The notes beneath the pieces are model-generated. The model was not told the origin of the DNA and made no database searches. It was given only the letters and a program-made list of their open reading frames with translations. From positions 5,082,239-5,146,238 of the forward strand of contig NC_037270.1 of NCBI RefSeq assembly GCF_000002425.4: a stretch of 64,000 nt of DNA. The letters are read 5' to 3'. Source of the DNA: Physcomitrium patens. Lineage: Eukaryota > Streptophyta > Bryopsida > Funariales > Funariaceae. The translations under genes were made by a program, and so were the position numbers. Shown piece after piece: positions 32,346 through 61,805 of the stretch (the first letter of the stretch is position 1; the number at the start of each line of letters is the position of its first letter).

Positions 32346-32851
32346 TATCAAAGACATGAATCTCAAAGAAAAAAAATCCTCAATACTCTCTTGTGTCATT
32401 AAAAGGAACTAAAAAGTCACTCAAAGATGATGCCCTATTCAACTAGAATGGCTACGGCTAAAAATAAGAAGACAAGAAAGTCTTGAAATAGGACTAAGGT
32501 TTAAAAAAGTATTAACAAGAGTAAGAAGGCTTCTTTATTGCATCCATATATACTTTTAACTAGGACTACGTCAGAATGTCATATAGGACCTCCAAAATGT
32601 ATTGACTTTGTAAGACATGTAACTAAACTTGTAAGGCAAGTTTTTTAAATGTACACAATACAACTTTTTTGCTCCATAAGCTACTAATAATTGGTTAACT
32701 CATTGAACAAGTCTCTAACCTACGAATCAAATACAAATACATTTAAAGTCAAAGCAGTATCTACGAAGCTTTAAAGGAGCTTTTTTAGAAGATATTACAA
32801 AATAAATTTAATTTTAACTCCTTCAACATAATCATATAGGAATTTATCAGA

Positions 32852-32896
<45 letters not shown>

Positions 32897-32898
32897 CA
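32346..32898 (-). repeat. Element D' 3' LTR
   Basis: On the minus strand it starts TGTCATATATAT and ends TCTTTGATA. Its outer flank reads GATTG on the minus strand, close to AATTG beside the LTR at 46302. A 40-bp (AT)n run lies at 32855-32894. Confidence 0.8.
32855..32894. repeat. (AT)n microsatellite inside an LTR
   Basis: Uninterrupted AT run close to the LTR start. Confidence 0.9.
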
Positions 32899-32950
32899 TT
32901 ATCTTCTCTTTAAGGGACAAATTCTATAAAAAGTAGTCATCGTATACTAA

Positions 32951-33355
32951 TAAAAATCAAGATGCAACAAATGGCATTTCTTATAGATAATATTTTCTTT
33001 GAAGATGATTGATAGGTCTTTTAAGCCATTGATAATGTCTCATATCAAGACGTGAAGATTACCTTATTATTTGTACATTGTTGAAGCCTTCATAACTTCC
33101 TTCAAATAAAACATTAAGAACATCATTAAGAATTATTTTTAGGTCTCATAAAATCACCAAATATCAAGAGTCTCTTCTAGGGTCATGATATCCAAAATGT
33201 TGTATTTTACCATCTATTTGAGGTAGAAAATGTCGTTCTTAAAGATCTTCATCTTAATAACATTGTTTTAAAGATTGTATCAATTATAATGTATCATTTG
33301 GTAAATCAACAAATGAAAGCTCTTGAGTTGAATCTATTGATTTTTGGTTTTTCAT
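32951..33355 (-). pseudogene. ORF3 remnant of the left arm
   Basis: Mirror copy of the right-arm ORF3 (52309-52713). The shared-position stop is TAA at 33061-33059. The last part, beyond 33015, lies outside the identical arm and is diverged. Confidence 0.6.
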
Positions 33356-36300
33356 CTTTTTAATATCACAAATACATAGAAACTACAAACAAGGGTAGAA
33401 GATAGAATGCTATCTTTTTTAGATCTTATTTTTTTATAGTGAAGATTTGTTATTCTTTATTTTGATTTTGATGGATGTTATCAATGAAAAGTCTCAATTC
33501 TCTTTGTTGCATTTATAAGATTCTTTATTGGCTCTCATGTGCATTCATTTATATCATATCCACACCAATGAATAAGATATTCCAACCTATTTTGGCACCG
33601 CCTTGAATCTAAGACTTCTTCTACTTCAAATTCTTTATTATTATCCACTTCTATAGGAGGAGGTGGCATTTGTCTTCTTTTTGAGATATTCATTGTCTTA
33701 TATGATTTAAGAAGAGACACATGAAATATAAGATGGATCTTCATAGACTTTGATAGATGTAATCAATAAGCAACAAGATTGACTTATTTACAAATAAGAA
33801 AAGATTCAAGCCCACGATAGTCCAACTTGTCACAAGAATAAATAGTCTTAATATTACAATAAAATAACCATACCTTATCATTCATGTTAAATTATTGTTG
33901 TTCCTTGTGATAAGCATTTGCATTGATCTATTATTATTCTTGATCTCCCTTTGATTGCATTTTTATTATTGCATGTAGTATTGACAAACAGTTTGCCAAA
34001 TCTTATACTATATGATTATTAATTTTTGAAAAGTCAAAAGTATCAAGTTGTAGATGAAAACCATAGTTGGCAAAGAAAGATACTTTTTGAGTGGAAGAAT
34101 GTACCAAATTATTGTACGCAAATCCTGCCAGTAGTAAAACAATTGTCCAATCATCTTGATAATAATTGATGGTACACATCAAATACTACTAAAAAACTTG
34201 ATTCACACATTCTACTTATCCATCAATTTGGAAATATAAAGCTAAAGAGAGCTTTATATCCACCTTTAGAATGTTAAAAAGGATTTTTCAAATCTTGATA
34301 TAAATTGAGCCTTCCTATTTGATATAATAACTTAAAGCAATCCATAATAGCAATAGATATTGTCAAAAAAAAACTTAGCCATTTCTTCACTTGTAATAGA
34401 TTTTATACATGATACAAAGTGTGTTATTTTGATAAAAATGAACTACAATTCATAAATATAGAATTATACAAACTTTAGATTAAAAGATCTGTGATAAAAT
34501 CTATAGATATAAAAGATCATAATTATTTTGAAATAGGTAATGGCTGAAGAAATCCATAAGGTCAATAGCAAGGAGTTTTGGATCTTAAACAAATATCACA
34601 TAATTGTACAAAGTCTTTGATTTCCTTCCACATTTGAAGCTATAAAAAATCTCTTAATATTAGTTCCAAAGTCTTCTTGTATCTAAAATATCCAGTTGTT
34701 GGAAAGTCATGACAAGCTTAAAAAACACATAATTATGCCTCGTCTTTTGGAATATATAATCATCCTTCAAAATAGAGTAGGTTATTCTTGAACTTGAGCT
34801 TTGAAGTATCATGAGATTTAGAAGAACTATTCTTAATATCATAGACAAGAAGATCAAAGAACATACTTGATTGAATTTGCTTGACAAAGGTTGAATCAAT
34901 AGTCAAAGTTGATTTTATTGCTCAAAGGTGAAAATGCTTTGGCTTTAAGAGAATCATTCTTTGTTGATTAAAAGATACATTTCTTTCTTTTTGTACAAGA
35001 TAAGAATGTCTAGAAAAGACATTTGACAAACCTTGTTGTTTTCCAAGTCAATAAGTGATCTTAAAATCAAATCTCAATAAAGACATGCTCCAACAAGCTT
35101 GGCAACAATTCAAAACAAATATCGATATGAAATACTCAAGGTCCTTATGATCTGTATGTACAATGATTGGATCCAAGGTACCTTCTAGATAATGACACCA
35201 TTTTTGAAATGAATCCACAATTGCAAAGAATTCTTTGTTGAGAATCTCATAATTAATCTTAGCTGTTGAAATTTTTTTTTAATATAAAAGCTATTAGATG
35301 GAATTTATTATTTACTCTTATTTATGACAATACTACATCTAAGACAAAGTTTGATGCATTTATTTCCATAAAAAATGTCTTAGAGAAGTTAGTATGATAT
35401 AAGATTGGTGTAGAAATAAACTCTATTTTTAAAGCATCAAATGATGCTTTGGCTTCTTTACACCATTTAAGTTTGTTTTTACAAGTCAAATGTATAAATA
35501 GAATTGTAACTTGAAAAAAATTCTTAATGAAGATCTGATCGTAATTGATAAAGCCCAAAAAGTATTGAACATTTTTTATTGTTCTTAGAATCTTCTTATT
35601 AATGAGAATCTGGATCTTTTTTGGATCCATCATTAGCCCTTTGTTGAAAATAATGTATTCTATGAAATTAACTTGAGTAGTGTGGAATACTCACTTTTCT
35701 AACTTGGCATATAATCTTGTATCTCTAAGTTTTTATAATACACAATAAATATGAACTTCATGTTTTTTTATATTCTTAGAATAGATTAAAATATCATCTA
35801 AATAATAGATGATAAAATCATCAAAAAAATACATAATAGACATCATTCATTAAATGTTGAAAAGCAGTTGATACATTTGTGAATCCAAATGGCATAACAT
35901 TATATTTAAAATACCTACATCTGGTTTAAAATACAATTTTTTTGTTCATCTCTTTCTTTAATGTGTATCAAATTATAGACTCCTTGTAGATCTATTTTAT
36001 ATAAATATTTAATTAATTTAATTAATTAAAAAACTCCTAGAATTAAAAATAGAAGATATTTATTTTTGATGGTGATCTTATTCAGTACTTAATAGTCTAC
36101 ACACATTCATAGAGATCAATTTTTTTTTTTCTTCTCAACTAAAATAGGAGCCTTGATTGAAGATTTAAAATGGAATATGAAATTCTTAGCCACGTCCTTA
36201 TCAATGTATTTTTTAAGTATAGCTAATTCATTTTGTAATAGGCTATAGATTGATTCAAATGATGGTTGAGTCTATTTGTGAAGATCTATGGAACAATCAC

Positions 36301-37107
36301 AAGGACAATGGTCTAAAAAAATATTTATATATTTTTTTAAAAAAACATCTTAAAAATCTTGATATATGCTAGGAATATTACTTGATATCTTTCTACCATA
36401 AAAAATGGACGTGGCATATATAGCAAAAGATGATCCTTCTTTAGTGATATGCATAAAAGTTCTTGTAACTACTAGTAAGGACTTGAATATACTAAACTTA
36501 TGTACTTCAACTTGGTTAATGAGATTTTGGATTAAACTACAAGAAAAATTAAAGTTACAAAAAATCCAATCCATTTGAGGATTATATTTTTTTAATTAAG
36601 ATAATCCTAAAGTAATAAAATTAGATAAAGATCTTATTATATTAAATATTACTATGCTATTATGATCTTTAATTACTACATCTAAATAGATAATTTCATG
36701 CGTAACATCTCTAAAAGATATCAAATAACTATCTATGACTTCTATATATATATATATATATATATATGGATTTAAATTTCTTAACTAATGATATCTCTTA
36801 TTTTTTGACAAAATTTTTATCTATAAAACAAGTTAAGGCTCATAAATCTAACAAAACTAAGACTTTGTGATTTTTTTGTCCTAAATAAACTTCTATTGTA
36901 AAACATGGTGAAGAGTTTGAGGAAAAAATATAACCTTTACTAGAAATTATTCAAGATTCTAGCCACACAATCTCTATTGTAGTTGGAGAAACTCTTTTTC
37001 TAACACATTGTCTTCTTTGGCAACCATGCTTTTTTATTTTGTGGTTGCATTGTTTCTTTGCACAATGTTAATTAATATTTTTAGCTTCTCCATAATATAA
37101 ACATAAA
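33015..37107 (-). repeat. Left arm of a 4.1-kb inverted repeat (gypsy pol region)
   Basis: This segment is the reverse complement of 48545-52649. Four translated frames (33535-33744, 34660-34899, 35322-35633, 36350-36574) are identical in both arms with constant coordinate sum 85664. The one difference I found is the length of an (AT)n run: 25 bp at 36743-36767 here versus 37 bp at 48885-48921. Identity ends abruptly at both borders, with mismatches at 33014 and 37108. Confidence 0.93.
33484..36990 (-). pseudogene. pol: Gypsy pol in the left arm (heavily decayed)
   Basis: Protease, RT (MMDPKKIQILINKK segment at 35322-35633), RNase H, integrase and a chromodomain remnant (EFEVEEVLDSRRC, LIHWCGYD) at 33535-33744 are recognisable against B. 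Stops and frameshifts are frequent, so the copy is old although the two arms are identical. By the flanking evidence the body of this arm originally belonged to D'. Confidence 0.85.
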
Positions 37108-38047
37108 CCCTCTTGATGTTGTCAGGTCTTTTTTTCTTGCTCCATGAGGGATTCAAAATGTATCATATCAATTTCCATTGGTTTTCATCTTGATTAATAA
37201 GTTTTTGAAAACATGAGAGCTTCCATCATTACTTGATTTTATCTTATCCATTCTATCATTTTTCTTGACATCTTTTAAATAATTGATTATTACATAGAAT
37301 GGTTTGAATAATAGATTATTTTAAAGATTCTATCTATGATATTATGAATAACAAATCTTTGGCATTATCCTTCAAATTATATTAATATTGATTGATAAGA
37401 GCTTTGTGATTCTAATCTATATTGCATGCTAGATTTTGGAATTTAGTTATATATATGGTGGCTAATCATAATTCTTGTTATAAAGATAAGAGCTTGATCT
37501 TTGCTACTCTTTCCTAATCACTTTCTCTGAATGTATTCGTAAATACTTTAAAGAATGAATTCAAATCATAAAGGTGTTGTGAATCTTTTTTTATTAAAGA
37601 TACTAATCAAGAGAGAGCACTTTTTTATAGAACTGCATCTATGAACCCGACTTGAGTAAATCCATTAGGATATTGAAAGGGATGCAACCTTAAATAGCAT
37701 TTGACTTGTTGTAAAAATCTTCAAAATTTTGATCTTGTTCTATCATACTTCTCATGCATATTTATCATTGTTGTAGTCATAGTTATAAAATCAAAATTTT
37801 CTAGATTTGGTTGTAAAGTCAATCTACTTGCTTCCTTCAAGTACACAACTTCTTAATGTAAACTCTAAACCTCTTCCATTGGCATAGGAATAATATTTCT
37901 ATTATTCACATTGAAAATATGTGAGATTTCTACTCTTAGAGTATTATCAAGCTCATGAAGATTTATAATAGTTACAAATTTATTCTCACTTTCAATAAGA
38001 GTAACATCCATAATTTTTCCTTCTATAGACAATTCAAACAAATTCAA
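37108..38047 (-). pseudogene. gag: Element D gag remnant
   Basis: The frame 38047-37865 (MNLFELSIEGKIMDVTLIE) is the gag start and resembles 47060-47242 of D' with about ten residue differences. The rest follows gag with stops through the capsid region. This part lies outside the identical arm. It connects to the arm at 37107 now, but probably belonged to the right arm originally. Confidence 0.75.
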
Positions 38048-38270
38048 ATAATTAAATTAGAGGAAAGTAATCTGTAACTTCTAATTTCAAATGAAATTTT
38101 TTATAAAGATATATAATCCATTCTTTTTAAGTAAAAAATTAGTGTTACAAAACAAGATTGTTTGTTTAAAGGTAAATAGTCTAAAATCTTTAAAATATAA
38201 CTATAAAAGTGAAATAATCCACTTATTTCTTAAAATAGATAGAAATAGTAGATTAATATTCTTATTTAAA
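38048..38270 (-). other. Element D leader
   Basis: Untranslated leader between LTR and gag. It begins TTTAAATAAGAATATTAATC on the minus strand, similar to the D' leader after 46837. Confidence 0.6.
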
Positions 38271-38810
38271 TATCAAGGACATGAATTACGAAGAAAGAAA
38301 TTTTCAATATATTCTTGTATCACTAAAAAGAACTAAAAAGTCACTCAAAGATGATATAGTATTAAACTAGAATGGCTATTGCCAAAAATAAAAAGACTAG
38401 AAAAGACTTGAAACAAGACTAAGAACTAGAAAGGTATTGATAAGAGTGAAGAAGGCTTTACTCTTGCTTCTATCTATATTCTTAAGTAGGAACTATTTAA
38501 GAATGTCCCATAGGACCTTCGAAATATGTTGACTTTGTAAGGCCATATCTTAACTTGTAATGCAAGTTTTTTTATATGTACACCATATAGTTAGCTTATT
38601 TTGTAAGGTACCAATATATGATTAACTTATTGACTAAGTTTTTAACCTACTAATCAACTACAAATCCATATAAAGTCAAAGCAACATGTATAAAGCTCTT
38701 AGGAAGCTCTTCTTGAAGATATTTCAAATTTAATCTATTTTTAACTATTTTTATATACTTCTACATAATTATATAGGTATTTATTAAAATATGTATGTAT
38801 ATTTGTGACA
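38271..38810 (-). repeat. Element D 5' LTR
   Basis: On the minus strand it starts TGTCACAAATATAC and ends TGTCCTTGATA. The outer flank is GGTTA on the minus strand and lies inside copia gag sequence. Confidence 0.82.
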
Positions 38811-39353
38811 TAACCATAACATTGCTGTGAAAGTGGCCAATATGATGAAGTTTCCTTTGGATGTCATATACCTTTGTCATGAAGGTCATAACATCCATAT
38901 TATTTGACATGTGTAAATTCTTCCATTTGTTCAAAATAACCATTGTATCTGCAATGGTGTTTGTATGGTATATTGAGTTGAATTTGTACCAAGTATCTTG
39001 TGGATAAGAAAGATCTTCTACAAACATACAAAGCTCAAGCTATTATGAAAATTTAATGACTGAAAAGACTTATTGTTGTTTGAGTTATAGATGGTCTTGA
39101 TCTTGTGAAGGTCTAAAAAGTGATGTTGATGGTGTAGTATGCAAATCTTTAGTTTTACTTGAATCAAGATCAGCAATGGCAGAGTAAGTTGCTTCAAAAG
39201 TTGCTTGATCATTCATTGGTGTAGTTGTAGAAGGCAAGTCGTTGACAACCTGCCATAGATTGTCTTGAAGAAATAGCTTTGTTGTATAGATTTCCACAAT
39301 TAAAAGTTAGCAAGACCTAATAGCATAACCTCTTTAGAAACTACCGTATCCAT
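38811..39353 (-). pseudogene. gag: Copia element F, gag start
   Basis: ATG at 39353 (MDTVVSKEVMLLG), then a frame change, then LFLQDNLWQVVNDL and PQDTWYKFNSIY...MTFMTKVYDIQRKL, the UBN2-type copia gag signature. The sequence breaks off at the D LTR at 38810. Its continuation is at 54906 on the opposite strand. Confidence 0.8.
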
Positions 39354-39532
39354 GGTACCCAAGGGAATAACTTGTGATGTGCACAATGTGCATATATTCT
39401 AGTGGATAGTGTTAAAGTACTAAGTAATACAAAGGTTAAAAGGACTTCTGAAGTGGAATATTCCTATGGCTGGTTTAGAAAACTCAGCACACTAAAAAAT
39501 ACTTGATGCTAATGGATCAAGGACCTAGCCTA

Positions 39533-39543
39533 CTCTGCTACCA
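39533..39543 (-). promoter_or_regulatory. Copia F primer-binding site
   Basis: On the minus strand TGGTAGCAGAG follows the LTR end directly, a one-base variant of the tRNA-iMet primer site common in plant copia elements. Confidence 0.75.
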
Positions 39544-39690
39544 TGTAGGAAATACTAAACAAAATGAACTATATTGAACTGAGAGCTTCTGAACAAGAGC
39601 TCGTATTTATACAGAGTATCAGGATAGAATCCTGAACGAGGATGAACGTAGTTGCTAGTCTGTTAATGCTTATCATCTACAAGGCCAACA
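39544..39690 (-). repeat. Copia F 5' LTR (147 bp)
   Basis: On the minus strand it runs TGTTGGCC...TTTCCTACA with a TATA box CTGTATAAATACGAGC. It is the same length as, and very similar to, 61659-61805. The outer 5 bp read CTTCG on the minus strand (39691-39695), identical to the 5 bp after the other LTR. Confidence 0.88.
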
Positions 39691-42600
39691 CGAAGTGCAT
39701 GATTTCAGATGACCAGGTTTTAGGGCTGTGAAACTCAGTAAGCCCTACCATATGAAGCGAGTGTTGAGCTCATGAAACATATTTTTTTCGCTGTGCACAG
39801 GAGTGCAAAAGGCCATGAAGACTCTAATGCTTGCAAGAATGTCGTGAGGAGGGGTTTCTCGGACACGTTTGTATGCACAAGGCCGACCTTGCCAGCAGTA
39901 AAGGTAACAGAAATTTTTCTGTGGCTAGCCCACAAGCTGAGAGTCTTCTTATCCACAGTTAATTTGACTGATCACACATAATTTGCCTCCCAGATGTTTG
40001 ACTAGCTGGTGTATCGTGATCGCATCAACAGTGAGTGACTTCGTTTCAACCTGCAGCTTTACTTGATCAAAGGTGGTTTGCGAAGACTTGGTGGGCCTCC
40101 AAATTGCACCAGCTACAAGTAAGCCCTCTTTGATTTAAAAAAGCACGGTCCTTTCAAACTTGGCGGACCTACCTGGACGAGAGTTGAGAATTTACATTGA
40201 GACTTCTGCTGCATAATTGAAGGTTAGAAGGCTGAGATCATTCAGAAATCATCGGGGGCGTCGTTAAAGAAGGGTACACAGTAGTTTTTTGAGTTTTAAA
40301 TGTCATCACCTCCTCTGCTTGCTCAATGCATCACCTTTGCCCTTGTCCAATGCTCATGTCCTTTAATGAACAATGTCCGTGCTGTACAAAACTAAAGAGA
40401 TGGGAGCGTAAGGTTGTATTATGAGCAAAGATACTCACTACCAACCGTATTGAATTTAGCACATTTCTGACTTTTACGAACAAGGGGCCTTGTAATTTGA
40501 AACCCCTGTTCACTGGAATTTTGCAACAGAATTAGAATGGATCATTTGGTCTCCACTTTGAACGAAGTAACCGCTGAATGTAATGAATATAACTTTGACC
40601 TTTGACTTGCTTTGATCCTCTCCATACTAAGTTTACCCAAAATCCATGACAATCAATTTTCTTGGAGCCGTAGCTCGAAATTGTCTAGATTTTGGGCGAG
40701 AAATATCATATATCAATGGAATTTTTTTGCACATGCACCTGTGATTGAAATGCTCAAAATACAGCAATTGATGAGCAGTATAGGTTATCGTGGTTGGGAA
40801 ATCCTTCCAGAAAACATGAAGTTGGATCGTATTCCATGAGTTTAACTGGAATTATGCACTGTCTTGTGACTTCATCATCAAGTCATTGGCATCGACTCAA
40901 GAAGATCTTTCTCGGTACTCTAGATTTTCACCGCACCGTCTCACACCTGAAGACCCAGATTGACTTTCGTTGCTCTTTACCAGAGAGTCGCGTTTTCTAT
41001 GGCAGCCTCAAGACTTGCAGTCTCTTTCCGACTTTCTCCCGGTCTTTAAGCGCTGTCTTCTTCGACTTTTGCAGGTAAAATTCCGATTCTCAGCTTTTAC
41101 TTTAATCTTTGAAGGTATTTTTCGTGGGTGTGTGCCATTTCCCGGAGGTAATCAATCAAACGAAAGTTCGGGATGTTTACCAAGGGTGAGATAATTGAGA
41201 CAGTTATGAATTCATCGATACGCGCGTTCATCGCTAGTTCAGTTCCGAATTCTGTCTGTATCGGAACTGGATCGTGCGCTTCCAATGTAAGACGGTGCCA
41301 GACGTTAGCCAGAGGGCACGTCTTAAGTACATCCCTGCATGAAACCGGGATGAATTAACTCTAGCTTAGGCCCCCCTACGACTAGACGAGATCGATTGTC
41401 GATCAAACATGTGCAATTGCAGAACCATGTTGGTGGAGTTGGAACAAGAGAAGATCAGGTGGGGCCCGCTTGAAACAAGACGTAGACAATGCTGTGGCTA
41501 TGGCGCTGGCCGAGATTGGCCAGTGCAGTTCCATTCACATAGAGTCGTACTATTTCTTTCCTCCATGTTTATACCTGAATGTATATATATATATATACAT
41601 ATACAAACTCAATTATATCTCTCTCTCTATATATATATTCATTGAATTTCTCTGGCTTGTTCAATTGAAGTTACTCTGCTCAAGATTCATCCAAAGTTTG
41701 GAATACGGTCACTCTCGCCCCGGCTCCCCGCTCTCCCGCTTGAAAGATTCCGTCGGATCCAGCATGATGAATTTGAAAGAGGCGATGAGTTTGAGGCTCA
41801 CACGCAATGTAGGGGAAGGAAGGGATGGAAGCTTATGGCGAAAGATACTCAAAACTACGGCGCGAGGGGTAGGTTTTTTTTCCAATGATTATCTTCCACC
41901 ACAAGGAACCCACCCACCTTGCTCTCTGGGCTGCTTGCGGCGTGATTTGCACAAAACCACGTCAAAATCTTTCAGTAACTTCCCAAGCAAACAACACTCC
42001 CGCACGCCGTAAAAACCCACATCGCTTTGCTGTGGCTAATCCATGGCTGGCCCATGAACCCATCTCACTAAGCTTTCAGAAGACGTAGCAATGACGAGGC
42101 AGCGTTGCACCACGATTCCACAGGCACACGAAGAACACAACACGAAGACAACGACCGAGGAAACTGATGGATTTCGAAACGGATGTGATAGCATTTGAAT
42201 GTCGGCTTTTAAATTTTAATCTGGTGGATTTTACTTCAGTCTGCTCAGGAGGGTGCCCGTGGCTCTGAACTATTAGGCTCTGAAAAAGCCTCCTAGACTT
42301 TGAATCCCGCTTCATCAGTGCTGTTCAGTTCTCTCAAATTTAGCCATTCTGTCAGAATTGGTTATTGACGTTTTTTTCTTAAAAATACAAGGAAGGGAAA
42401 TCTTGTTTCTGGTTCCATTCCCGAGTAATTAATTATTTTTTCCATTCCATAAACTATGTGGACGAGCAACTATTTTTTGGTGATATACTAAATCAGTAAC
42501 AAATTTTTTGAATGATAAGGGAGTTCTTTTATAAATTGAGATGTTGATTACTTGTATGATTTTTGTATTTTTTACATTTTTGAAAAAAATGATTCAGCAT

Positions 42601-43914
42601 TGACTGCTTCCACCATATTTTTAAGTCACCTTATGAGATGGGCAAATTTTTACTTTTTACTTTTCTCCATCTGTTTTGTTAAGTTTAAGTCCTCCATTAT
42701 TAACCGTACTGTATTTGAAAATTCAATGTTTCAAATGGTGTCCTATTTGAGGTCAAGTCTTTGAACCTTATGCATGTTCGTTTCAAAAATTTCAATGTGT
42801 CTGTGAGAGAGAGAGAGAGGGAGAGAGAATTTTCAAAACTCCTGTATAATCTCAAGCATAAATTTGGCAATCACAACGTTTCAATGAAACTTTAATGTGT
42901 CCAATATTTTTTCGTTACAGCCATTTGGTTTTAAATTTTAAATTCTGTATATTGTGTATGACTTGACTGTCTCCTGCAGTGTTTTTTTCTCTCACAATTT
43001 TTGCTAGATTAAAATAACATTTGAATCTAGAAAATATTGAGTTGCTTAATTAATTACATTCTTTGAATTCTTTATTGAATCTTTGGTAAAGAAATATAGT
43101 TGTATAATTATCCATATTGAAATCTTTATTAAAAAGCATGTTTTTGTATTTATGATGTATGACATCCAACTACCCATTATATTACTTTGTTGTATTCTGA
43201 CAATCCTTTGGATTCTCATATATCAAATTGTTGTTCATGTAGGTGACATATATATATACACACACACACATTGAATGAACATGCATGTGCAATGAATGAC
43301 ACTAAGTTACAAATAATCCCAATTGTTTTTAAAATACAAAGAACAAGATTAAGTTTCAGATAAAATAAACATTGTTTCCATATAAAATCATTTCTGAGTT
43401 TTTTGGAACAACTTTTGGTGGAATAAGTGTTCATAGAATTTCTATGAAGACATTTTGAGGACCTTGGTAAAAGTATAATTGATAGACCAATATTACAAAG
43501 ACTATATGTTTTAGAAAAGGAGTTGAATTGTAATTTATGATTAAGTTTTTATACATACATACATATGTATATATATATATATATATATATACACATTTGC
43601 ACTTAATAATAATCATGCAGTTTTTTTGAGCAATGCACTAAATAAATGAAAGATATTCATAGCTGATGTTCTTAATTGAGATTTTATAGGTTTTCACATC
43701 ATATTGATTCTATTTGTATTTTCCAACTAGAAACTGATAATGATTGTGGAATGTTATATAACATCACAAAACAGTAATTTAGTGTTATGGAATAGAGCTA
43801 TAGGTCTTCTTAGAACCCTCACAAGGAGTTTCAGAAAAATAGTGGCTTGTTGTGACTGATAGAAACGAAAATATTAAACTCTTTCTATGTGTAAAATAAA
43901 ATAAAAAAATGTTA
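39691..43914. other. Host DNA inside the inverted spacer, no confident gene
   Basis: Unique-looking sequence of mixed composition. The part 40800-42100 is GC-richer. An open stretch around 41680-41870 (plus strand) encodes LERFRRIQHDEFERGDEF and related charged sequence and could be an exon, but no family is recognised and splice sites are unproven. Microsatellites occur at about 41581-41597, 43247-43271 and 43564-43591. A short GA-rich run lies near 42810. Confidence 0.4.
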
Positions 43915-44001
43915 TTAATAATTAATGAAACACTTTTCCATTTAAAATCTCCAATAGAAGTTCCTATTTTGTTTGTGAAGAAAAAGAATGGATCATTGCA
44001 G
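43915..44001 (+). pseudogene. pol: Element E, RT start fragment
   Basis: Encodes [13 protein letters not shown], matching the RT start of B ([13 protein letters not shown]). It is cut at 44002 by repeat X copy 1, and its own 5' part is missing. Confidence 0.75.
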
Positions 44002-48882: not shown

Positions 48883-48924
<42 letters not shown>

Positions 48925-51900
48925 GTCATAGATAGTTATTTGATATCTTTTAGAGATGTTACGCATGAAATTATCTATTTAGATGTAGTAATTAAAGATC
49001 ATAATAGCATAGTAATATTTAATATAATAAGATCTTTATCTAATTTTATTACTTTAGGATTATCTTAATTAAAAAAATATAATCCTCAAATGGATTGGAT
49101 TTTTTGTAACTTTAATTTTTCTTGTAGTTTAATCCAAAATCTCATTAACCAAGTTGAAGTACATAAGTTTAGTATATTCAAGTCCTTACTAGTAGTTACA
49201 AGAACTTTTATGCATATCACTAAAGAAGGATCATCTTTTGCTATATATGCCACGTCCATTTTTTATGGTAGAAAGATATCAAGTAATATTCCTAGCATAT
49301 ATCAAGATTTTTAAGATGTTTTTTTAAAAAAATATATAAATATTTTTTTAGACCATTGTCCTTGTGATTGTTCCATAGATCTTCACAAATAGACTCAACC
49401 ATCATTTGAATCAATCTATAGCCTATTACAAAATGAATTAGCTATACTTAAAAAATACATTGATAAGGACGTGGCTAAGAATTTCATATTCCATTTTAAA
49501 TCTTCAATCAAGGCTCCTATTTTAGTTGAGAAGAAAAAAAAAAATTGATCTCTATGAATGTGTGTAGACTATTAAGTACTGAATAAGATCACCATCAAAA
49601 ATAAATATCTTCTATTTTTAATTCTAGGAGTTTTTTAATTAATTAAATTAATTAAATATTTATATAAAATAGATCTACAAGGAGTCTATAATTTGATACA
49701 CATTAAAGAAAGAGATGAACAAAAAAATTGTATTTTAAACCAGATGTAGGTATTTTAAATATAATGTTATGCCATTTGGATTCACAAATGTATCAACTGC
49801 TTTTCAACATTTAATGAATGATGTCTATTATGTATTTTTTTGATGATTTTATCATCTATTATTTAGATGATATTTTAATCTATTCTAAGAATATAAAAAA
49901 ACATGAAGTTCATATTTATTGTGTATTATAAAAACTTAGAGATACAAGATTATATGCCAAGTTAGAAAAGTGAGTATTCCACACTACTCAAGTTAATTTC
50001 ATAGAATACATTATTTTCAACAAAGGGCTAATGATGGATCCAAAAAAGATCCAGATTCTCATTAATAAGAAGATTCTAAGAACAATAAAAAATGTTCAAT
50101 ACTTTTTGGGCTTTATCAATTACGATCAGATCTTCATTAAGAATTTTTTTCAAGTTACAATTCTATTTATACATTTGACTTGTAAAAACAAACTTAAATG
50201 GTGTAAAGAAGCCAAAGCATCATTTGATGCTTTAAAAATAGAGTTTATTTCTACACCAATCTTATATCATACTAACTTCTCTAAGACATTTTTTATGGAA
50301 ATAAATGCATCAAACTTTGTCTTAGATGTAGTATTGTCATAAATAAGAGTAAATAATAAATTCCATCTAATAGCTTTTATATTAAAAAAAAATTTCAACA
50401 GCTAAGATTAATTATGAGATTCTCAACAAAGAATTCTTTGCAATTGTGGATTCATTTCAAAAATGGTGTCATTATCTAGAAGGTACCTTGGATCCAATCA
50501 TTGTACATACAGATCATAAGGACCTTGAGTATTTCATATCGATATTTGTTTTGAATTGTTGCCAAGCTTGTTGGAGCATGTCTTTATTGAGATTTGATTT
50601 TAAGATCACTTATTGACTTGGAAAACAACAAGGTTTGTCAAATGTCTTTTCTAGACATTCTTATCTTGTACAAAAAGAAAGAAATGTATCTTTTAATCAA
50701 CAAAGAATGATTCTCTTAAAGCCAAAGCATTTTCACCTTTGAGCAATAAAATCAACTTTGACTATTGATTCAACCTTTGTCAAGCAAATTCAATCAAGTA
50801 TGTTCTTTGATCTTCTTGTCTATGATATTAAGAATAGTTCTTCTAAATCTCATGATACTTCAAAGCTCAAGTTCAAGAATAACCTACTCTATTTTGAAGG
50901 ATGATTATATATTCCAAAAGACGAGGCATAATTATGTGTTTTTTAAGCTTGTCATGACTTTCCAACAACTGGATATTTTAGATACAAGAAGACTTTGGAA
51001 CTAATATTAAGAGATTTTTTATAGCTTCAAATGTGGAAGGAAATCAAAGACTTTGTACAATTATGTGATATTTGTTTAAGATCCAAAACTCCTTGCTATT
51101 GACCTTATGGATTTCTTCAGCCATTACCTATTTCAAAATAATTATGATCTTTTATATCTATAGATTTTATCACAGATCTTTTAATCTAAAGTTTGTATAA
51201 TTCTATATTTATGAATTGTAGTTCATTTTTATCAAAATAACACACTTTGTATCATGTATAAAATCTATTACAAGTGAAGAAATGGCTAAGTTTTTTTTTG
51301 ACAATATCTATTGCTATTATGGATTGCTTTAAGTTATTATATCAAATAGGAAGGCTCAATTTATATCAAGATTTGAAAAATCCTTTTTAACATTCTAAAG
51401 GTGGATATAAAGCTCTCTTTAGCTTTATATTTCCAAATTGATGGATAAGTAGAATGTGTGAATCAAGTTTTTTAGTAGTATTTGATGTGTACCATCAATT
51501 ATTATCAAGATGATTGGACAATTGTTTTACTACTGGCAGGATTTGCGTACAATAATTTGGTACATTCTTCCACTCAAAAAGTATCTTTCTTTGCCAACTA
51601 TGGTTTTCATCTACAACTTGATACTTTTGACTTTTCAAAAATTAATAATCATATAGTATAAGATTTAGCAAACTGTTTGTCAATACTACATGCAATAATA
51701 AAGATGCAATCAAAGGGAGATCAAGAATAATAATAGATCAATGCAAATGCTTATCACAAGGAACAACAATAATTTAACATGAATGATAAGGTATGGTTAT
51801 TTTATTGTAATATTAAGACTATTTATTCTTGTGACAAGTTGGACTATCGTGGGCTTGAATCTTTTCTTATTTGTAAATAAGTCAATCTTGTTGCTTATTG

Positions 51901-52649
51901 ATTACATCTATCAAAGTCTATGAAGATCCATCTTATATTTCATGTGTCTCTTCTTAAATCATATAAGACAATGAATATCTCAAAAAGAAGACAAATGCCA
52001 CCTCCTCCTATAGAAGTGGATAATAATAAAGAATTTGAAGTAGAAGAAGTCTTAGATTCAAGGCGGTGCCAAAATAGGTTGGAATATCTTATTCATTGGT
52101 GTGGATATGATATAAATGAATGCACATGAGAGCCAATAAAGAATCTTATAAATGCAACAAAGAGAATTGAGACTTTTCATTGATAACATCCATCAAAATC
52201 AAAATAAAGAATAACAAATCTTCACTATAAAAAAATAAGATCTAAAAAAGATAGCATTCTATCTTCTACCCTTGTTTGTAGTTTCTATGTATTTGTGATA
52301 TTAAAAAGATGAAAAACCAAAAATCAATAGATTCAACTCAAGAGCTTTCATTTGTTGATTTACCAAATGATACATTATAATTGATACAATCTTTAAAACA
52401 ATGTTATTAAGATGAAGATCTTTAAGAACGACATTTTCTACCTCAAATAGATGGTAAAATACAACATTTTGGATATCATGACCCTAGAAGAGACTCTTGA
52501 TATTTGGTGATTTTATGAGACCTAAAAATAATTCTTAATGATGTTCTTAATGTTTTATTTGAAGGAAGTTATGAAGGCTTCAACAATGTACAAATAATAA
52601 GGTAATCTTCACGTCTTGATATGAGACATTATCAATGGCTTAAAAGACC
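48545..52649 (+). repeat. Right arm of the 4.1-kb inverted repeat (gypsy pol region)
   Basis: Reverse complement of 33015-37107, apart from 12 extra bp in the (AT)n run at 48885-48921. First mismatches are at 48544 and 52650. The spacer between the arms is 37108-48544. Confidence 0.93.
48660..52195 (+). pseudogene. pol: Gypsy pol in the right arm (heavily decayed)
   Basis: Same content as the left arm: protease start after CTACAATAG near 48672, RT around 49520-50010, RNase H near 50280-50640, integrase near 50990-51850 and a chromodomain remnant at about 51990-52130. It follows the B gene order throughout. By its flanks this arm originally belonged to D. Confidence 0.85.
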
Positions 52650-52713: not shown

Positions 52714-52735
52714 AATTTGTCCTTAGAAATGCAGA

Positions 52736-52957
52736 GAACGGTACAAGTATATATACATTCTTTGATAAATACATATATGAGTACATTGAAGTTAATAATA
52801 GTGGATAAAAATAAAACTATTTTTATTATTCCTTCTAGAAAAGTTTCTTTGAAGCTTCATGGACATTGTTTTAATTTTACATATCTTTATAGTTGATTGA
52901 TAGATTAGAAACAAGTTAACGAGATATTAGTTGCTTGTGGAGCAAGATAATTGTGTT
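52736..52957 (+). repeat. Element D 3' LTR, left piece
   Basis: Diverged LTR start (the TGTC end is mutated, so the border is approximate), followed by sequence aligning with the first part of the other D-type LTRs. It is interrupted by repeat X copy 2. Confidence 0.75.
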
Positions 52958-52961
52958 ACGT

Positions 52962-54591
52962 TGTCGTATTATGTGAAGTCTTGCTTGAGAATGCATTGAG
53001 GACTTAGCTATGGAAGGTAAAAGAAAATTGCAACAAAAGGTCCTAAGAATCCAATAGGATTTTAGAAAATTTATAATTAAAAGTTAACAATCATAATCAA
53101 ATATTAAGCAAGCTCAATTAAATTTTATTGAAGTTATAAAAAAAACACAAGGAAATCCTAAAGAAATATAAAAGAATATTATAGAAAACTTAGTCAAACC
53201 TTAACAAAAATCTAATAGAATCTTAAATTCTAACCAAATCCTAATTCTAATCTAACCTTAATCAAACCTTAGACAAATCCTAAATCCTGAATCGAATCTT
53301 AATCAATTCTTAATCAAACTTTAAACCTTAAATCAATCCCTAATCAAATCCTAAATTAAACCTTAAATCCTAATTCAAACCCTAATCCAAACTCTAAACC
53401 CTAAATCAAATCCTAAATCAAACCCTAAACTCTAAATCCTAAAACAAATCCTAAACCATATCCTTATCCTAACAAATCCTAAATCCTAAACCAAATCCTA
53501 ACCAAATCCTAATCCTAAATCTTAATCAAACCCTAATCCAAACCAAACTCTAATCACAGATTTGAAAATTAAATAACTAAAGATTGAACTGTTGATTCTA
53601 ATTCAAAATTTGCATACTACTTGGAATTTAAGTTAGAATCTAGCACACAAATTTCGAAGAAAATCGCACTTACCAATTAGTCGATGACCTCAAAATTCCG
53701 CTCGAATGTTGGATGGTCTCTCCTTCTCCAATCTTGATGCCAACTTCCAACACTGACATTTTCTTTTTCCACCATTCGATTGCTTCCAAATTTTACTAGC
53801 ATATAGGAAATCATATCTTCTACTGATAAAACCAAAAATTTCTCCAATCCAGCTAGCAAATTTCTAGATATCTAAGAAAACCTTACAGGTCCTCAAAACC
53901 CTAAATTCCGAGATCTTAGCGCACAAAAATCTTCATATGTATCGATCTAGCCACTCAATTGACCTCAAATCTCTTATACACATTTACAAAAAGCATACCA
54001 ATAATTCTCGAAATTTTCACTTGTAAAAATGCTACAAAAGACATGAAATCCAAACATTTGTAAACTAGTTTTATTTCTCAAAGATTTGAATTCACAGTGA
54101 ACATCACTCGCTTTGAAAATCCCTCAAAAATCCAATACTGATCCAAACGACACGAAATCACCTCTCAAAAATTCTTCCACAAGTCTTTTCTCTAATTTGG
54201 CTCTTTGATCTGCCAAAGAACTTTTAGTCGCCGTCAGAGCATGGTTTTGTGCGTAGGGGTCTGATTTCGACCTAGGTTCATAACCGGTCCTCTTTGGGTA
54301 TCAACTTTCATCTTCTTGAGGTAATTTTTACTAATTTGCACTCCTAACTCCTCCCTACATATGCCTATATTCTTTATTTTTCTAATCTACTTTGTTTTGT
54401 CTTATTTATGGCCTTACAAAATAAATAGAAGTATAATTTGTAAAATGACAGCATTAGCACCTTTAATTTTTCTACCCTTTGACTAATATCTATTTTTCCA
54501 AGATAATTTGCTACAACATTTTTGAAGTGAGATCCTCAAAACATGATATTTTCTTCACCCTTTCACTTGTTAGCCATATTACATCATGACA
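52962..54591 (+). repeat. Repeat X copy 2 (complete, 1630 bp)
   Basis: Starts TGTCGTATTATGTGAAG and ends ATTACATCATGACA. ACGT flanks it on both sides (52958-52961, 54592-54595), and removing the insert restores a continuous LTR. Because the ends are near-palindromic, a shorter duplication cannot be excluded. It holds a degenerate telomere-like array at about 53080-53560 and a more GC-rich right half. The minus-strand frame 53859-53677 (VSVGSWHQDWRRRD) is not a known protein. It may be a solo LTR of an unknown retroelement or a non-autonomous DNA transposon. Confidence 0.8.
53080..53560. repeat. Degenerate CCTAAA-type (telomere-like) array in repeat X copy 2
   Basis: Irregular tandem units such as AATCCTAAATCCTAAACC, with occasional perfect AAACCCTAAA. 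These resemble decayed plant-type telomere repeats (CCCTAAA). X copies 1 and 3 have comparable tracts. Confidence 0.75.
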
Positions 54592-54905
54592 ACGTACATA
54601 TAAAGAACTTGCCTTGTAAGTTAAGATACATGTCTTACAAAGTCAATAGATTTTGAAGGTCCTATAGAATATTGGTATGTAGTTCCTAATTAAGAGTATG
54701 TATGGAGTGAAGGGTGAAGCCTCCTTCATTCTTGTCAATGCTTTTTTAGTCTCTAGTCTTGTTTGAAGATTTTCTAGTTTTTTTTTATTTTTGGAATTAG
54801 CCATTCTAATTCAATACTATATCATCTTTGAGTGACTTTTTTGCTCTTTTTAATGACATAAGAGTGTATTGAGGATTTCTTTCTTTGAAATTTATATCCT
54901 TGGCA
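54592..54905 (+). repeat. Element D 3' LTR, right piece
   Basis: Continues the LTR after repeat X and ends TATCCTTGGCA. The next 5 bp are AGTCA, compared with GGTTA beside the D 5' LTR. Confidence 0.8.
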
Positions 54906-55822
54906 AGTCATATACAAAATATTTTATAAACTACTTCATTGATTTGACTTGTTTATATAATAAGTTAAAAATAAACATACTATACTAACATTCAAAGAGC
55001 TCAATACATAACTTCAAATAAAAAAACATCATATTAGACTTCGACAAAATATTCAAAAGAAGTACTAATCATGAACTTTTATTATGCTATCAACCACTGC
55101 TATTATCCATAATAAAATCACTAATCTTATAATTTTTTTAACTAATTACAAATAAGTTTTGATTAATTTATATGTACTTGATGTGAGATTTTTAGTCTTA
55201 ATTTTAGATATTTTTTTTATGTCTATACAACTTCAAATAGCTCTTGCAAATTCTTATGAATAGCCATTGCATTCTTTTGGACTATCAAATTAGTACTATT
55301 TATTTTCTACTAGCCCTACTCATAACCATTCTTCATCTTTTATAGAAGATCCATAATTAAATGCAAATATTATAGAGCATGGTTATGACAATCAATAGAA
55401 CTTGTTTGAGGATCTTATTGAAGTTATCTATAAAGTTCTTATGATCTAAAAAAATAACAATGAGCGGATTTTTAATTTGTATACTTCTATCTACTTTTTA
55501 AGCAATGAAGATTCTTTTTCCTTCATGCTCGTCCTTAGTAATCTCAGCAAAAAGAAGCATCTATGTAATAAGAGATCAATGGCCAACTCAAGTCTTTCCT
55601 TTTAAAAATAAATAAATTCATAAATGATATTAAATACATATCTGAACTACAGTGCAATATATTATTTTTTGATAAACTTGTTGATATAGGACATATTATT
55701 TTATTCAATAAAAAATATTATGTCATATTAATCTAGATAAAGCCATTCATAATTATTGCATCCGAAAAAAGAGATACTCTAATAAGATTATACAAACTAG
55801 TAACCATAGATGATATAACCAT
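54906..55822 (+). pseudogene. Copia F, gag end and protease region (decayed)
   Basis: Resumes copia gag where it broke off at 38811: an FDLF-like segment, then LTFKEL, as in the usual LTFEEL portion of copia gag. Further on only weak similarity remains. It is interrupted by X copy 3. Confidence 0.65.
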
Positions 55823-57391
55823 TGTCATAATATGTGAAATCTTACTTGAGAATGCTCTGGGCACTTAGCTATGGAAGGTAGAATGGAAATTACAACAATA
55901 AAATCCTAATTCTAATAGAATACTAACTAAAATCTAATTAGACTATAACAATGCTAAACAAGCTTTATTCAAAATCAAAGAAATGTCAAAGGAATTACAA
56001 AGAAACAATAAGAAATCTTAAAGAAATATTAGAATGCTTACAAATATAAGTCAAATATATCTCAATTCAATCTTAATTTAATCCTAATTAAAATCCTATT
56101 GGTCTTCATTAAAACTTTAGGCCAAAAACTAACTAAATCTTAAATCTTAAATAAATATTGATAAAATCTTAAACCCTAATCAAATCCTAATCCTAAACCA
56201 AATCCTAACCAAATCCTAACCAAATTCTAAATCCTAAACCAAATCTTAATCTTAAATCAAATCCTAATCCTAAATCAAACCCTAACCAAATCCTAAATCC
56301 TAAACTAAATCCTAACCAAATCCTAAATCCTAAACCAAACCCTGATCAAATCCTAGTAATTTCGATAACAGATTTAAATCTCAATTACTAATAAATGAAC
56401 CATTGATATTAATTCAAAATTTGCACACTTCTTAACAATTAAGTTGACAACAAGCACAAAAAAATTGAAAAGGATTGGAATTACCAAATAGACAATAACC
56501 TCAAAAACGTGCTTGGATATTAGTCAGCCTCCTTCTCTAACCTTGATGCCAATCTCTTCGAGCCAATATCTCTCCTTTTCACCATTCGATTGATTTCAAA
56601 AATTTTATATACATAGAAAAATAAGTCTACTATTTTCATTTATAAATTTAATTTCAATCCAAAAAGTAAATTCCAAGCATCTTAAAAATCCTCACTAGAC
56701 CTAAAATTCTTTTTCTAAAACCTTGATCCACTTAAACCTCAATAACCCTCAATTAAATCATTTGATTAAGCTAAAATTTATAATACCTATTAAGCCTAAA
56801 TATAACCATTAATCTACAAAATTTTACTTATAGATCTATTACAAAACTCTTGAAATCATCCAAAACATCAACCCTATTTTATTTCATAAAATCCAAGTCA
56901 TCTAAAAACAAACTTGACTTTGTAAAGCTCTTAAAAAATCATTACGAATCCAAATCATCCAAAACCAATGCTCACAAAAACTTTATCTAGTTTTCTATCA
57001 AAACTTGTTCTCCGATCTACAAAAGAATCTCCAAATCGTCATCAAGATTTGGTTTTGTATATTGGGATCTATTTTCAACGTAGATTTATAACCGGCCTTT
57101 TTTTGGATATCAATATCTAGTTTTTCTAGATAATTTTTGCTAAAATTTACTTTTAACTTCTTTCTAAAGATGTCTACATTATTTATTTTTCCAATCTACC
57201 TTATTTTGCTTTATTTTTGGCCCTACAAAGTAAATAGAAGCTATTTTTCTAAAAGAGCAGTATTACTACTAAAAGTTTTACTACCTTCCTATCTTTTTTT
57301 CATATTTTTCTTCTTTATCTTTTAACTTGGCTCTTCTATAATAAGATCCATATTATTATCTTTCACCATATAGTCATGTTACAATATGAAA
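55823..57391 (+). repeat. Repeat X copy 3 (complete, 1569 bp)
   Basis: Starts TGTCATAATATGTGAAATC and ends TTACAATATGAAA, a decayed ATGACA. CCAT flanks it exactly on both sides (55819-55822, 57392-57395). The telomere-like array is at about 56040-56355. It aligns with copy 2 over most of its length. Confidence 0.8.
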
Positions 57392-60300
57392 CCATCTCAA
57401 TAATAGAAGTACTTTGTGTTACAATAAATTCTAAATTGCATATTTCTTCAACAATACATCTCTTAAATCTTTGGTATTAGCAATTAAGTCATATCAACTA
57501 TCAAATTTTGAGCCTATTCAACAAAAAAAAAATTTGAGATGGCATTCAAAATTCACAATAATTCCTTAGTCCTATATATTATGCTTTAAAGAAAAATATG
57601 CCAATCTTTTCTTTAGCAAACAATACATCAAGTGAAAATTCCATTAGAATTAATTGACATCAATTTTTGTAACAAGCTATCGATATCATCATTAGAACAT
57701 TCAAATTATTTCTTTGTCTTTATTAATGATTATAATAGGAAATATTGGATTTACTTCTTATAATCAAAAGCTAAAACCGTCACTAAGTTTCAACAACATC
57801 AATACGTACTGAAAAGGCAAAAAAATCAAAAAATCCTCAAAATATGCTTTAATAATGGAAGAAAATATACTAATGAAAAGTTTGACTATTACCTCTAATC
57901 TCAAGGAATTCTTTGGATCTATCTACTACTCATATATCCTAAGAAAATGGAAGAATTACACTATTTTCAATAAAATTATATCTATACTATTTAGAGAAAA
58001 AATATCTATTTTTTTTAAACAAAAAGAATGTAGATAACCATCCAACTAGTGAATTATATATCCACTTGTTTAATTGACAATATTGCCTTCAACAAACTTT
58101 ATTTTAGCAGCAAATTAAATCTCAACTGTTTATTTATTTTAAGTTGTATCATACACAGCCATCAAGATAAGTTTGATAAACTTAGATCTTGCTTCTTCAC
58201 CAAATTTTTTTTGGATCTAATTAAGAATTCAAAGCATATAAAATATAGCTACTAAAATTAAACCAAATCCAAATAAATAGGGATATAATCTTTAGAGATG
58301 ACTACTTTTTAGATACAAATAATGAAGAGAGCATCTTAATTGTATCTATACTTATTTTATCAAAATATTCTAATATATTGGAAGCATTAATATCTTATTC
58401 AAATTCATCTCAAATTCCATTGCTTATACCATTATAATTGACTCTATTAAGCTTATTAGACTCTCTAAAAGTGACCACTACAGAGCCAATTTTACAAAAT
58501 TATATGAGTTAGTAATTGTCTATATTCTTTGCTAATGCTTCAACAAAACTAACTACTTAGTCTTCTTTAGATCCTTCTTTTTATTAAAATATATTAAACA
58601 ACCTTGAATATTAGCCAATAATTGATGCATTTAATGATTTCACATCACTTTTGGACTATTGACAAAATCCAAGTAATGACTAATAACTTCAATCGATATC
58701 AAAAACTTTTCACAGTGGCAAAAGAATTCAACATTCATCTTGATAGTTACAAGCTTATTTTGTGGTTGTATACGAGCTACTAGTAGAGCCTACCTATTTC
58801 ATTGATATACAAAAATGATACATGGACCTTCATATCATTCTTTATTGGAAAAATTCCTATAAGTATCAAATGGATTTTTAAAGAAAAATTAAAATTAAAT
58901 ACGTCATTTTAAAAATATAAGGCACATTTAGTAGTTCAAGATTTTGAACAACAACCAAGAATTGATTATGAAGATACTTTTATGCTATTAGTGAAATGGA
59001 GAATAATCAAACTTCTATTCACTCTTATTGTATACCAATTTAGAATTTATTATGAAGATACTTTTGTATTAGTAGTGAATTAGAAAATAGTCAAACTTCT
59101 ATTAGCTCTTGCTACATAATATAATTAGCTATTATATCATATAGATGTCAAAACAACCTTTCTACATGGGAATCTAAAACAAGTAGTCTTCATCACTCAA
59201 CCTTAAGGCTTTGATGTCCAAAGAAAAAAAAACACCTTATATATAGGTTCCACAAAGCATTATATGGTTGTCAACAAGCACTTAAATAATGGTATAAGAA
59301 AATAGATTTTTTCTTACAAAATTAAGGATTTATCAAAGATTAAGGTGACTACAACATATATGTTGTAAAGCATGAAGCAAAAATTCTATTCCTTGCTTTA
59401 TATGTTGATAATGTATTATTCATAGGAAATTACACTAGGTGAATTGAATTATTCAAAAATTAGCTTGAATGTCAATTCAATATATCTAAGCCAGAAAAAT
59501 AGAATATGACTTTGTTTTTTTAAAGCTAATGGCATATAAATCACACAAGGGATTTTTGAGACACAAAGACCTTGAAACAAATATTAAAGCTTTTTGATAT
59601 GAAAAATTATCAACTTGTTTCTATATCCATAGTTGAGAAGCTTAAACTACAAACTAATATGAAAATGCTTTATTGTGACCCTGAGCTATATACATCAATC
59701 ATTAGAAAATTAATCCAATTGCAACATACTCGCCCAAACATTTCTTATGCCATTAGAATTTGCATCACATTCATAGCTAGACCTCAACTACTATAACTAT
59801 AAGCTATAAAATATATTTTCAAATATCTCATATAAATCAAACATTATGACATTTTCTATAAGAAAAATAACAACTTATAAATTTTAGGCTATGTGGATGC
59901 TAAGTAGGCAAGAGATTTAGAGGATATAAAATCTACAATAGACTTTGTATTTTGTCTTGAACAAGGATCTATTAAATGATTATTAAAAAAAATAATAAAT
60001 TGTTGCTTTCAATTCTTTTGAAGCAAAATACATGGCTCTTTCTACTACAATACAAGAAGTAGCCTAGCTGGAGAAATTAACAAGAAATCTAGGCCTATAA
60101 ATTAATCATATAGTAATTACACTATGACAAAAAAGCTTTTATAAAAATAGAAACTAATTCCAAAATTAACCAATGCATAAAGCATATTAGTACTTATTAT
60201 GACTTTATTTATGAATGGATCACAACTTGTGAAATCACAATTCAATATGTACCATCCATAGAACAAAACATCAATATCTTTAATAAGTCTTTAGACAAAA

Positions 60301-60700
60301 TAATATTTCAAAAAAATTAGAAATGCTTATAATTAAGTAATTACTATGATATAGCAACTGTTGTAGATAATCAACACATAGATAATTAAATTATATTACT
60401 ACTATAAAAACCTCTCTAACGAAACATCTTCTATAAGAATTAATATTAGGTATTTTATGTAGCCTAATTGAGTCATTATTCATGAATTGTACTCCAATAA
60501 GAATATTTTCTACAATCGACATAATATTCTTAAAATTCTTTGAAGCCAATATATTTCATTCATGTAATTAAGACATAAAATCAAACAAGGGATAATTACA
60601 GCATTTACATGCTTTTTTGACATAGATAATAAATTCACAGCTTCTTTTTTGATGTCTTCTAATACACTCTGAAGAATCTTGTTTACATCTACATCACTAT
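57392..60700 (+). pseudogene. pol: Copia F pol: GAG-pre-integrase, integrase, RT and RNase H (decayed)
   Basis: Recognisable in copia order: SHINYQILSL (GAG-pre-integrase, near 57467), integrase YFFVFINDYNRKYW (near 57709) and NNGRKYTNEKFDYY (57852), RT KWIFKEKLK with KAHLVVQ and IDYEDTF (58868-58980), HIDVKTTFLHGNLKQ (59138), FHKALYGCQQALK (59250), ALYVDNVLF (59395), then TRPNISYAI (59731) and the RNase H segment ALSTTIQEVA (60032). Integrase precedes RT, which defines copia. Stops are frequent. Near 58965-59090 a segment of about 100 bp is duplicated in tandem. Confidence 0.88.
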
Positions 60701-61218
60701 TTTTGTATTATGTATATTCTTTCTTGAGAATACATCAAGCTCCTAATTGTAGAAAGTAACTAGAAATACAACAATAAAATCCTACAAAGTCAAATAGAGT
60801 CTTAATTAAATTTTAAGTAATCTTTAACAATTTAAATTAAACTTTAACCAAATCAAAAGTAATTTAAAAGAAGTTACAAAAGAAACATAAAGAAGTTATA
60901 AATTAATTTCAAATAATAATAATAATAATAATAAAATCCTAAAAAAAAAGCTTCCAAAACCTCTCAGATGTTAACTACCTTCCTTCTCTAGCTTGAATAT
61001 TGATCTTCCAATAACAATTTTTTCCTAGTAAACTATTCAAATACTTTAAAAACTGACTCTTCTAAAAGAAGGCAGCATTAGCACTTGTTAATTTTTCCTA
61101 CCTCCTTGTCTATTATCTATATTTCTAAGATAATTTGCTAAAATAATTTCATTTAAGCTCTTTTATAATAAAATATTTCTTTTCTTCTTTCAACTAATGG
61201 CCATGTTACTACATGACA
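60701..61218 (+). repeat. Repeat X copy 4 (internally deleted, 518 bp)
   Basis: Starts TTTTGTATTATGTATATTC, decayed from TGTCGTATTATG, and ends CTACATGACA. CTAT and CTGT flank it. The telomere-like array and much of the centre are missing, but both ends match copies 2 and 3. Confidence 0.7.
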
Positions 61219-61658
61219 CTGTCAAACTCCTTCTCCACCTCCATCTCCAATCTTTTCTATTGAAGCATTGTAGATACATCATTCTTTAAGCCTACTGATT
61301 TTGCCTTGAATAGACAATGTCGAATTCACAGCGCAAGGAAATTCTGCTTCACTCAAACAAAGTTCACTAACCTCAACCGCACTCAAACAATTCTCTGCCT
61401 CTGATTGTTGACATTCAAGACAGCAACTAACACTTGCTAAAAAACAGAACCTCCACGAAGACAGAATCAATAATGCAACCCACTCCAACCACTCATTGAC
61501 TATTATAGTAACTATCACGGGTATCTCCAGCACTAAAAGCAAAGAAACTCAAATAATCACCACAACATTAGTCTCTATTGTCAAGTCTATCAATCTACTA
61601 ATTGTCGTTAGGGTTTTTCCTTCAAATCCTAGAACCGATGTTTTAGAGAAAGACGGCG
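61219..61658 (+). other. Copia F, 3' untranslated part before the LTR
   Basis: No coding similarity. A purine-rich AGAGAAAGACGG precedes the LTR and may be the decayed polypurine tract. Confidence 0.5.
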
Positions 61659-61805
61659 TGTTGGCCTTGTAGATGATGAGCATCAACAGACTAGCAACTA
61701 CATTCATCCTCGATCAGGATTCTATCCTAATACTCTGTATAAATACGAGCTCCTGTTCAGAAGCTCTCAGTTCAATATAGTTCATTTTGTTTAGTATTTC
61801 CTATA
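61659..61805 (+). repeat. Copia F 3' LTR (147 bp)
   Basis: Runs TGTTGGCC...TTTCCTATA and is the mate of 39544-39690, but in opposite orientation in the window. It is followed by CTTCG (61806-61810). Confidence 0.88.

Follow-up and report, generated by a model that had tools for sequence, protein, structure and literature searches.

Inverted chromovirus copies with nearly identical arms and a probable 11.4-kb inversion in Physcomitrium patens

A nest of decayed retrotransposons

We analysed a 64-kb window of Physcomitrium patens NC_037270.1 (the whole stretch of DNA considered here), the right half of which is a dense nest of decayed long terminal repeat (LTR) retrotransposons, many of them gypsy elements according to BLAST of the window. 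Two gypsy copies in this nest, D (minus strand) and D' (plus strand), face opposite ways, and they adjoin the parts of two further elements, the gypsy fragment E and the copia element F, each of which is found in two places (Table 1). The internal part of D runs to ~32990, and the 3' LTR of D' is preserved as two pieces (~52743-52957 and 54594-54905) split by a 1.6-kb insert. Pfam domain calls were graded against the cut-off of each family, and relatives were compared by BLAST or alignment within the window. An original prediction had proposed that the spacer between D and D' is inverted relative to the ancestral order and that homologous recombination between the two copies is the simplest mechanism.

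Table 1 Features of the inverted chromovirus copies and the elements around them (positions within the window)
Feature	Position	Strand	Basis or remark
E3', continuation of E	31767..32345	-	Begins at D 3' LTR; known by DNA alignment to relatives
D 3' LTR	32346..32885	-	Adjoins E3'; flank GATTG at 32341-32345; inner end approximate
Arm A, internal part of decayed chromovirus D	33015..37107	-	2 mismatches and one 12-bp TA indel versus arm B over 4,093 aligned bases
Spacer, probably inverted	37108..48544	.	Flip reunites E and F; crossover possibly anywhere within arms
D 5' region	37186..38270	-	84% identical to 46839-47928
D 5' LTR	38271..38810	-	Adjoins F5'; flank GGTTA at 38811-38815
F5', leader and N-terminal gag of copia F	38811..39543	-	Retrotran_gag_2, E value 1.3e-5, below cut-off
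F 5' LTR	39544..39690	-	Outer flank CTTCG at 39691-39695; then TGGTAGCAGAG, primer-binding-like site
E5', gypsy fragment	44760..46301	+	Start approximate; ends in integrase region, at D' 5' LTR
D' 5' LTR	46302..46838	+	Adjoins E5'; flank AATTG at 46297-46301
D' 5' region	46839..47928	+	Alignment to D
Solo LTR, D family, in D' only	47929..48467	+	Inner end of arm B; flanks AAATC/AAACC
Arm B, internal part of decayed chromovirus D'	48545..52649	+	Alignment to arm A; Pfam domains across three frames
D' 3' LTR	52743..54905	+	Start approximate; insert at ~52958-54593; flank AGTCA at 54906-54910
F3', decayed copia integrase, reverse transcriptase, RNase H	54906..61658	+	RVT_2, rve, tblastn; repeat insert ~55822-57265
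F 3' LTR	61659..61805	+	Outer flank CTTCG at 61806-61810

Coding traces in arm B, the internal part of D', fall in three frames and include Pfam matches above cut-off to RNase H, integrase zinc-binding, SH3 and chromo domains, with reverse transcriptase just below it. Because these traces include a chromodomain (PF00385, E value 5.8e-11) downstream of the integrase (Integrase_H2C2, E value 8.4e-10), D and D' are, on their predicted domains, chromoviruses (Ty3/gypsy), old and decayed. This assignment and the recent conversion between the arms described below go beyond the original prediction.

Identity of the two arms

The internal parts of D and D' match in inverted orientation over 32991-37185 and 52673-48467, with a nearly identical core at 33015-37107 and 52649-48545. 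Within this core, arms A and B differ at two of 4,093 aligned bases (~99.95% identity) and by one 12-bp difference that lies in a TA run, which bears out the inverted 4.1-kb gypsy arms proposed originally. Elsewhere the two copies are less alike: their 5' regions are 84% identical (174 differences in 1,074 aligned positions), their 5' LTRs 82.9% and their 3' LTRs 78.4%. A 200-column profile places identity at ~0.8 outside the arms and 1.0 within them, with a drop to ~0.8 at both arm ends, the arms being much more alike than their colinear flanks (~1.0 versus ~0.8).

It is very unlikely that 4.1 kb would have been kept identical without exchange in copies that are 16–22% different elsewhere. 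The step in identity, from 84% and 78–83% in the flanks to ~99.95% in the arms, instead points to recent gene conversion between the inverted arms, which would have homogenised the 4.1-kb tract after the death of both copies. We place this homogenisation after the decay because the same decay is found in both arms, with 90-107 stops per forward frame. On the inner side, no more than 78 bp separate the end of the homogenised tract from the solo LTR (47929-48467), which breaks the homology there; the solo LTR sits where the tract ends, as if heterology had halted conversion.

Split host elements and the order of the locus

The ends of E5', E3' and F5' coincide with ends of D or D'. For E, we aligned the two parts separately to three relatives: the neighbouring elements B and C, and arm B. 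Across these alignments, the end of E5' falls at 46300-46301 and the start of E3' at 32334-32348. On element B, E5' ends at 30164 and E3' starts at 30162 (an overlap of 3); on element C, the corresponding positions are 26595 and 26603 (a gap of 7) and on arm B they are 51326 and 51319 (an overlap of 8). Because the halves abut within 8 bp on all three relatives, E is most simply read as one element that was probably split by the D/D' system. The small overlaps and the gap at the join may be explained by a 5-bp target duplication together with alignment fraying. Alignment scores of E3' were 259 to 382, and five shuffles, scored against element B only, gave 178 to 194. The original prediction had the integrase of E stop at 46301 and continue at 32345; the join held up, but the integrase label depends on a weak Integrase_H2C2 match in E5' (E value 0.0033, below cut-off), and none of the three frames of E3' gave a Pfam match.

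For F, the two 147-bp LTRs are 96% identical over 145 aligned bases, lie on opposite strands in the present order and are both bounded on the outside by the five bases CTTCG in element orientation, as the original prediction had described. F3' has the domain order of a copia element, with RVT_2 (E value 2.7e-24) and, upstream of it, rve (E value 9.1e-5, below cut-off). All eight polyproteins for which tblastn tables were inspected, out of 50 searched, match F3' and agree with this order. With its integrase upstream of an RVT_2-type reverse transcriptase, F is a copia (Ty1) element by these predicted domains. The contents of F5' and F3' are complementary, gag in one and integrase, reverse transcriptase and RNase H in the other, and a gag domain was found on the 5' side only (Retrotran_gag_2, 25.1 bits versus a cut-off of 27).

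The original prediction also held that gag stops at 38811 and resumes at 54906, and this part was not confirmed. Pfam with a relaxed cut-off gave no match at all in any of the three frames of the first 0.9 kb of F3', a profile built on residues 1-520 of 12 relatives listed a single match (E value 1.6) far from the gag part, and a short profile from six relatives gave no credible match at 54906. A protein search with the F5' gag matched none of 42 candidates, and none of the 50 polyproteins matched F5' in tblastn. A likeness noticed by eye between one frame and one relative scored at chance and was not used. Because the gag join at 54906 is not demonstrable, the F join rests on the LTR pair and the target-site duplication.

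These joins bear on a reading without any inversion, in which E5', E3', F5' and F3' would come from different elements that end at D and D' by chance. The window is a dense gypsy nest and the gag join of F is at chance level, both of which would suit such a reading. It is nonetheless highly improbable, given that the two E halves meet to within 8 bp on each of three relatives, that no other gypsy fragment ending at the E join was noticed in the BLAST list of the window and that identical five-base flanks border the F LTR pair on the outside.

The target-site duplications flanking D and D' favour the flip only modestly and carry little weight alone. In the flipped order, AATTG/GATTG agree at four of five bases and GGTTA/AGTCA at three of five (7/10 in total), versus three of five for GGTTA/GATTG and two of five for AATTG/AGTCA in the present order (5/10). 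The D' flanks AATTG and GATTG named in the original prediction are thus in place, but its statement that no pairs match in the present order was too strong. Flipping 37108-48544 mends the E join and reunites the F LTRs with their CTTCG flanks; a continuous gag was not recovered.

Repair of a break between inverted copies can lead to conversion without crossover or, less often, to crossover with inversion. We propose that D' inserted into gypsy E and D into copia F long ago, in opposite orientation, and that both copies then decayed. Much later, their internal parts would have recombined as inverted repeats: gene conversion would have made the 4.1-kb tract nearly identical, and a crossover within it would have inverted the 11.4 kb between the copies, leaving the present arrangements E5'-D'-F3' and F5'-D-E3'. 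The breaks fall at the ends of two inverted gypsy copies whose 4.1-kb tracts are almost the same, which makes homologous recombination through the arms the simplest route, and a single process would account for the identical arms, the split of E and the split of F. On the E join, the F LTR pair with its duplication and the arm tract, we give this account a probability of roughly 74%, which sustains the mechanism first suggested. Placing the crossover in the arms, tying it to the conversion in one process and taking the assembled order as real are inferences.

The last of these points would fail if the genome itself were un-inverted and the assembler had joined it the wrong way through the arms. 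Arms that are 99.95% identical over 4.1 kb could suffice to mislead short-read or mate-pair joining, and it is in the un-inverted order that E and F make sense. We nevertheless regard an assembly error as unlikely: the 64 kb contain no N, which would fit a long-read assembly that easily spans 4.1 kb, and the arms differ by two bases and one indel and so were not simply copied. Although a misassembly would also separate the halves of E and F, it would not render the arms identical, and the conversion would still want an explanation.

Several observations weigh against an inversion through the arms. When the gag join was scored directly by sliding, starts at 54907-54911 ranked from 10,993rd to 38,594th of 127,700 positions, which is chance level. 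Second, the LTRs of F are 96% identical versus ~80% for the LTRs of D, which is nested inside F, and these ages contradict the nesting unless mutation rates vary along the locus or LTRs were converted. The interior of F is badly decayed, and its ends have a G+C content of 0.35 and 0.39 versus 0.26 inside; the tension may possibly stem from slower decay at the edges of F or from conversion of its LTRs. A tandem duplication of ~84 bp in the reverse transcriptase region of F (58944-59110, units 80% identical) suggests that F is older than the 96% LTR identity implies.

Third, the LTRs of D and D' do not favour the flip, with identities of 77.8% and 80.2% for the flipped pairs and 80.8% and 79.2% for the present pairs. 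Among 39 two-versus-two columns in the four outer LTRs, seven support the flipped pairing, eight the present pairing and 24 group 5' with 5' and 3' with 3'. Six of the seven flipped-pairing columns lie within the first 104 alignment columns, in a part (the first 150 columns) that aligns poorly, and in ten realignments the present pairing had more columns than the flipped one in eight, fewer in one and as many in one. The search for chimeric D/D' elements through LTR site patterns thus gave a null result, slightly against the flip. Finally, the analysis covers one sequence of one assembly.

The class of 24 columns was the largest in all ten realignments (chi-square p 0.0009, bootstrap 0.998), and tree support for the LTRs was modest (0.755 and 0.893). 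Both LTRs of one insertion are identical at the start. Because 24 of the 39 columns nevertheless group 5' with 5' and 3' with 3', the pattern suggests that D and D' had earlier undergone exchange beyond the limits of the present tract. This exchange, the near-zero divergence of the arms and a geometry shared with the yeast flip/flop region, as presented in the portions of that study used here (PMC9731477), all speak for a special case that is compatible with the inversion, in which the orientation is not fixed and the converting arms keep flipping the spacer, so that both orders occur in the population or in one individual. We hold this to be possible but doubtful, as the data are a single sequence of one assembly in which the second orientation is nowhere seen. 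More tentatively still, the locus may be a living flip-flop of dead retrotransposons, in which decayed chromoviruses are kept in concert by continual conversion, the 11.4 kb changes orientation with both orders segregating, and the end of the shared tract is fixed by insertions in one of the copies, for instance the solo LTR at 47929-48467.

Both halves of the mechanism, conversion and inversion between inverted repeats, are already described in other systems. Palindrome arms on the mammalian X and in willow are long and gene-bearing. The arms of D and D' resemble these palindromic repeats in being kept alike by gene conversion, but the palindromes treated in the relevant portions of those reports lie on sex chromosomes (PMC8981503, PMC7023750). 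In the account of inversion 2z3 of Drosophila buzzatii, the parts consulted place opposite copies of one element, Galileo, at the breakpoints, with outside sequences exchanged between them, and infer ectopic recombination between the copies as the mechanism (PMC2775673). The likeness extends to the exchange, here of the E halves and of the F LTR pair with CTTCG; unlike Galileo as described there, the present copies belong to LTR retrotransposons and sit inside other elements, the inverted stretch spans only 11.4 kb, the locus is known from the assembled order alone and the LTR sites do not show chimeric copies. The flip/flop region on Saccharomyces chromosome XIV is also similar, in that inverted repeats of ~4.2 kb are homogenised by conversion and inversion is proposed as a by-product, with both proposed to arise from repair between the repeats; its repeats, however, hold genes and both orientations are found among strains and species, at least in the sections of the paper drawn on (PMC9731477), whereas ours are dead retrotransposons in one sequence.

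The earlier arrangement of the locus would be preserved in the split host elements E and F, and the identity step within two old copies would show the reach and recency of conversion. Should the species carry both orders, conversion and inversion between heavily decayed, CpG-depleted repeats could be measured here; should the other order prove real, the locus would be a clear example of converted inverted repeats misleading assemblies.

Decay patterns and neighbouring elements

CpG is depleted in the old elements of 28602-60400, with observed/expected ratios of 0.14-0.21 in element B, arm A, E5' and F3', and transitions account for 104 of the 174 positions at which the 5' regions of D and D' differ. 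Repeat-induced point mutation of the fungal kind is an unlikely cause of the decay: read against the customary cut-offs of its indices, the CpA index is not lowered (1.17-1.50 in all 12 segments), although TpA/ApT reaches 0.91-0.92 in two F segments (F3' and the 5' edge).

Three related repeat copies, ~65-67% alike, contain degenerate CCTAAA-like arrays. They lie in the D' 3' LTR (52958-54593), in F (~55822-57265) and beside E5' (~43999-44753), and the first has weak inverted ends, GTTGTC...GACAAC. Searches for transfer RNAs and Rfam families found nothing.

To the left of E3', element C (16061-28597, flanks CATTT) is nested in element B (~14505-16060 and 28602-31761). Neither the 5' LTR of B nor a continuation of E3' was found in 10000-14600, and a single deletion around 14505 might have removed both. 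Nested in C in turn is a younger chromovirus (16750-22888, minus strand) with long open frames of 741 and 401 amino acids. Among the best 120 of 5,641 similar proteins, identity to it reaches 91% (over 75% of the query), and the named matches in this set come from frogs, the alga Closterium and Tanacetum at 43-63% identity.

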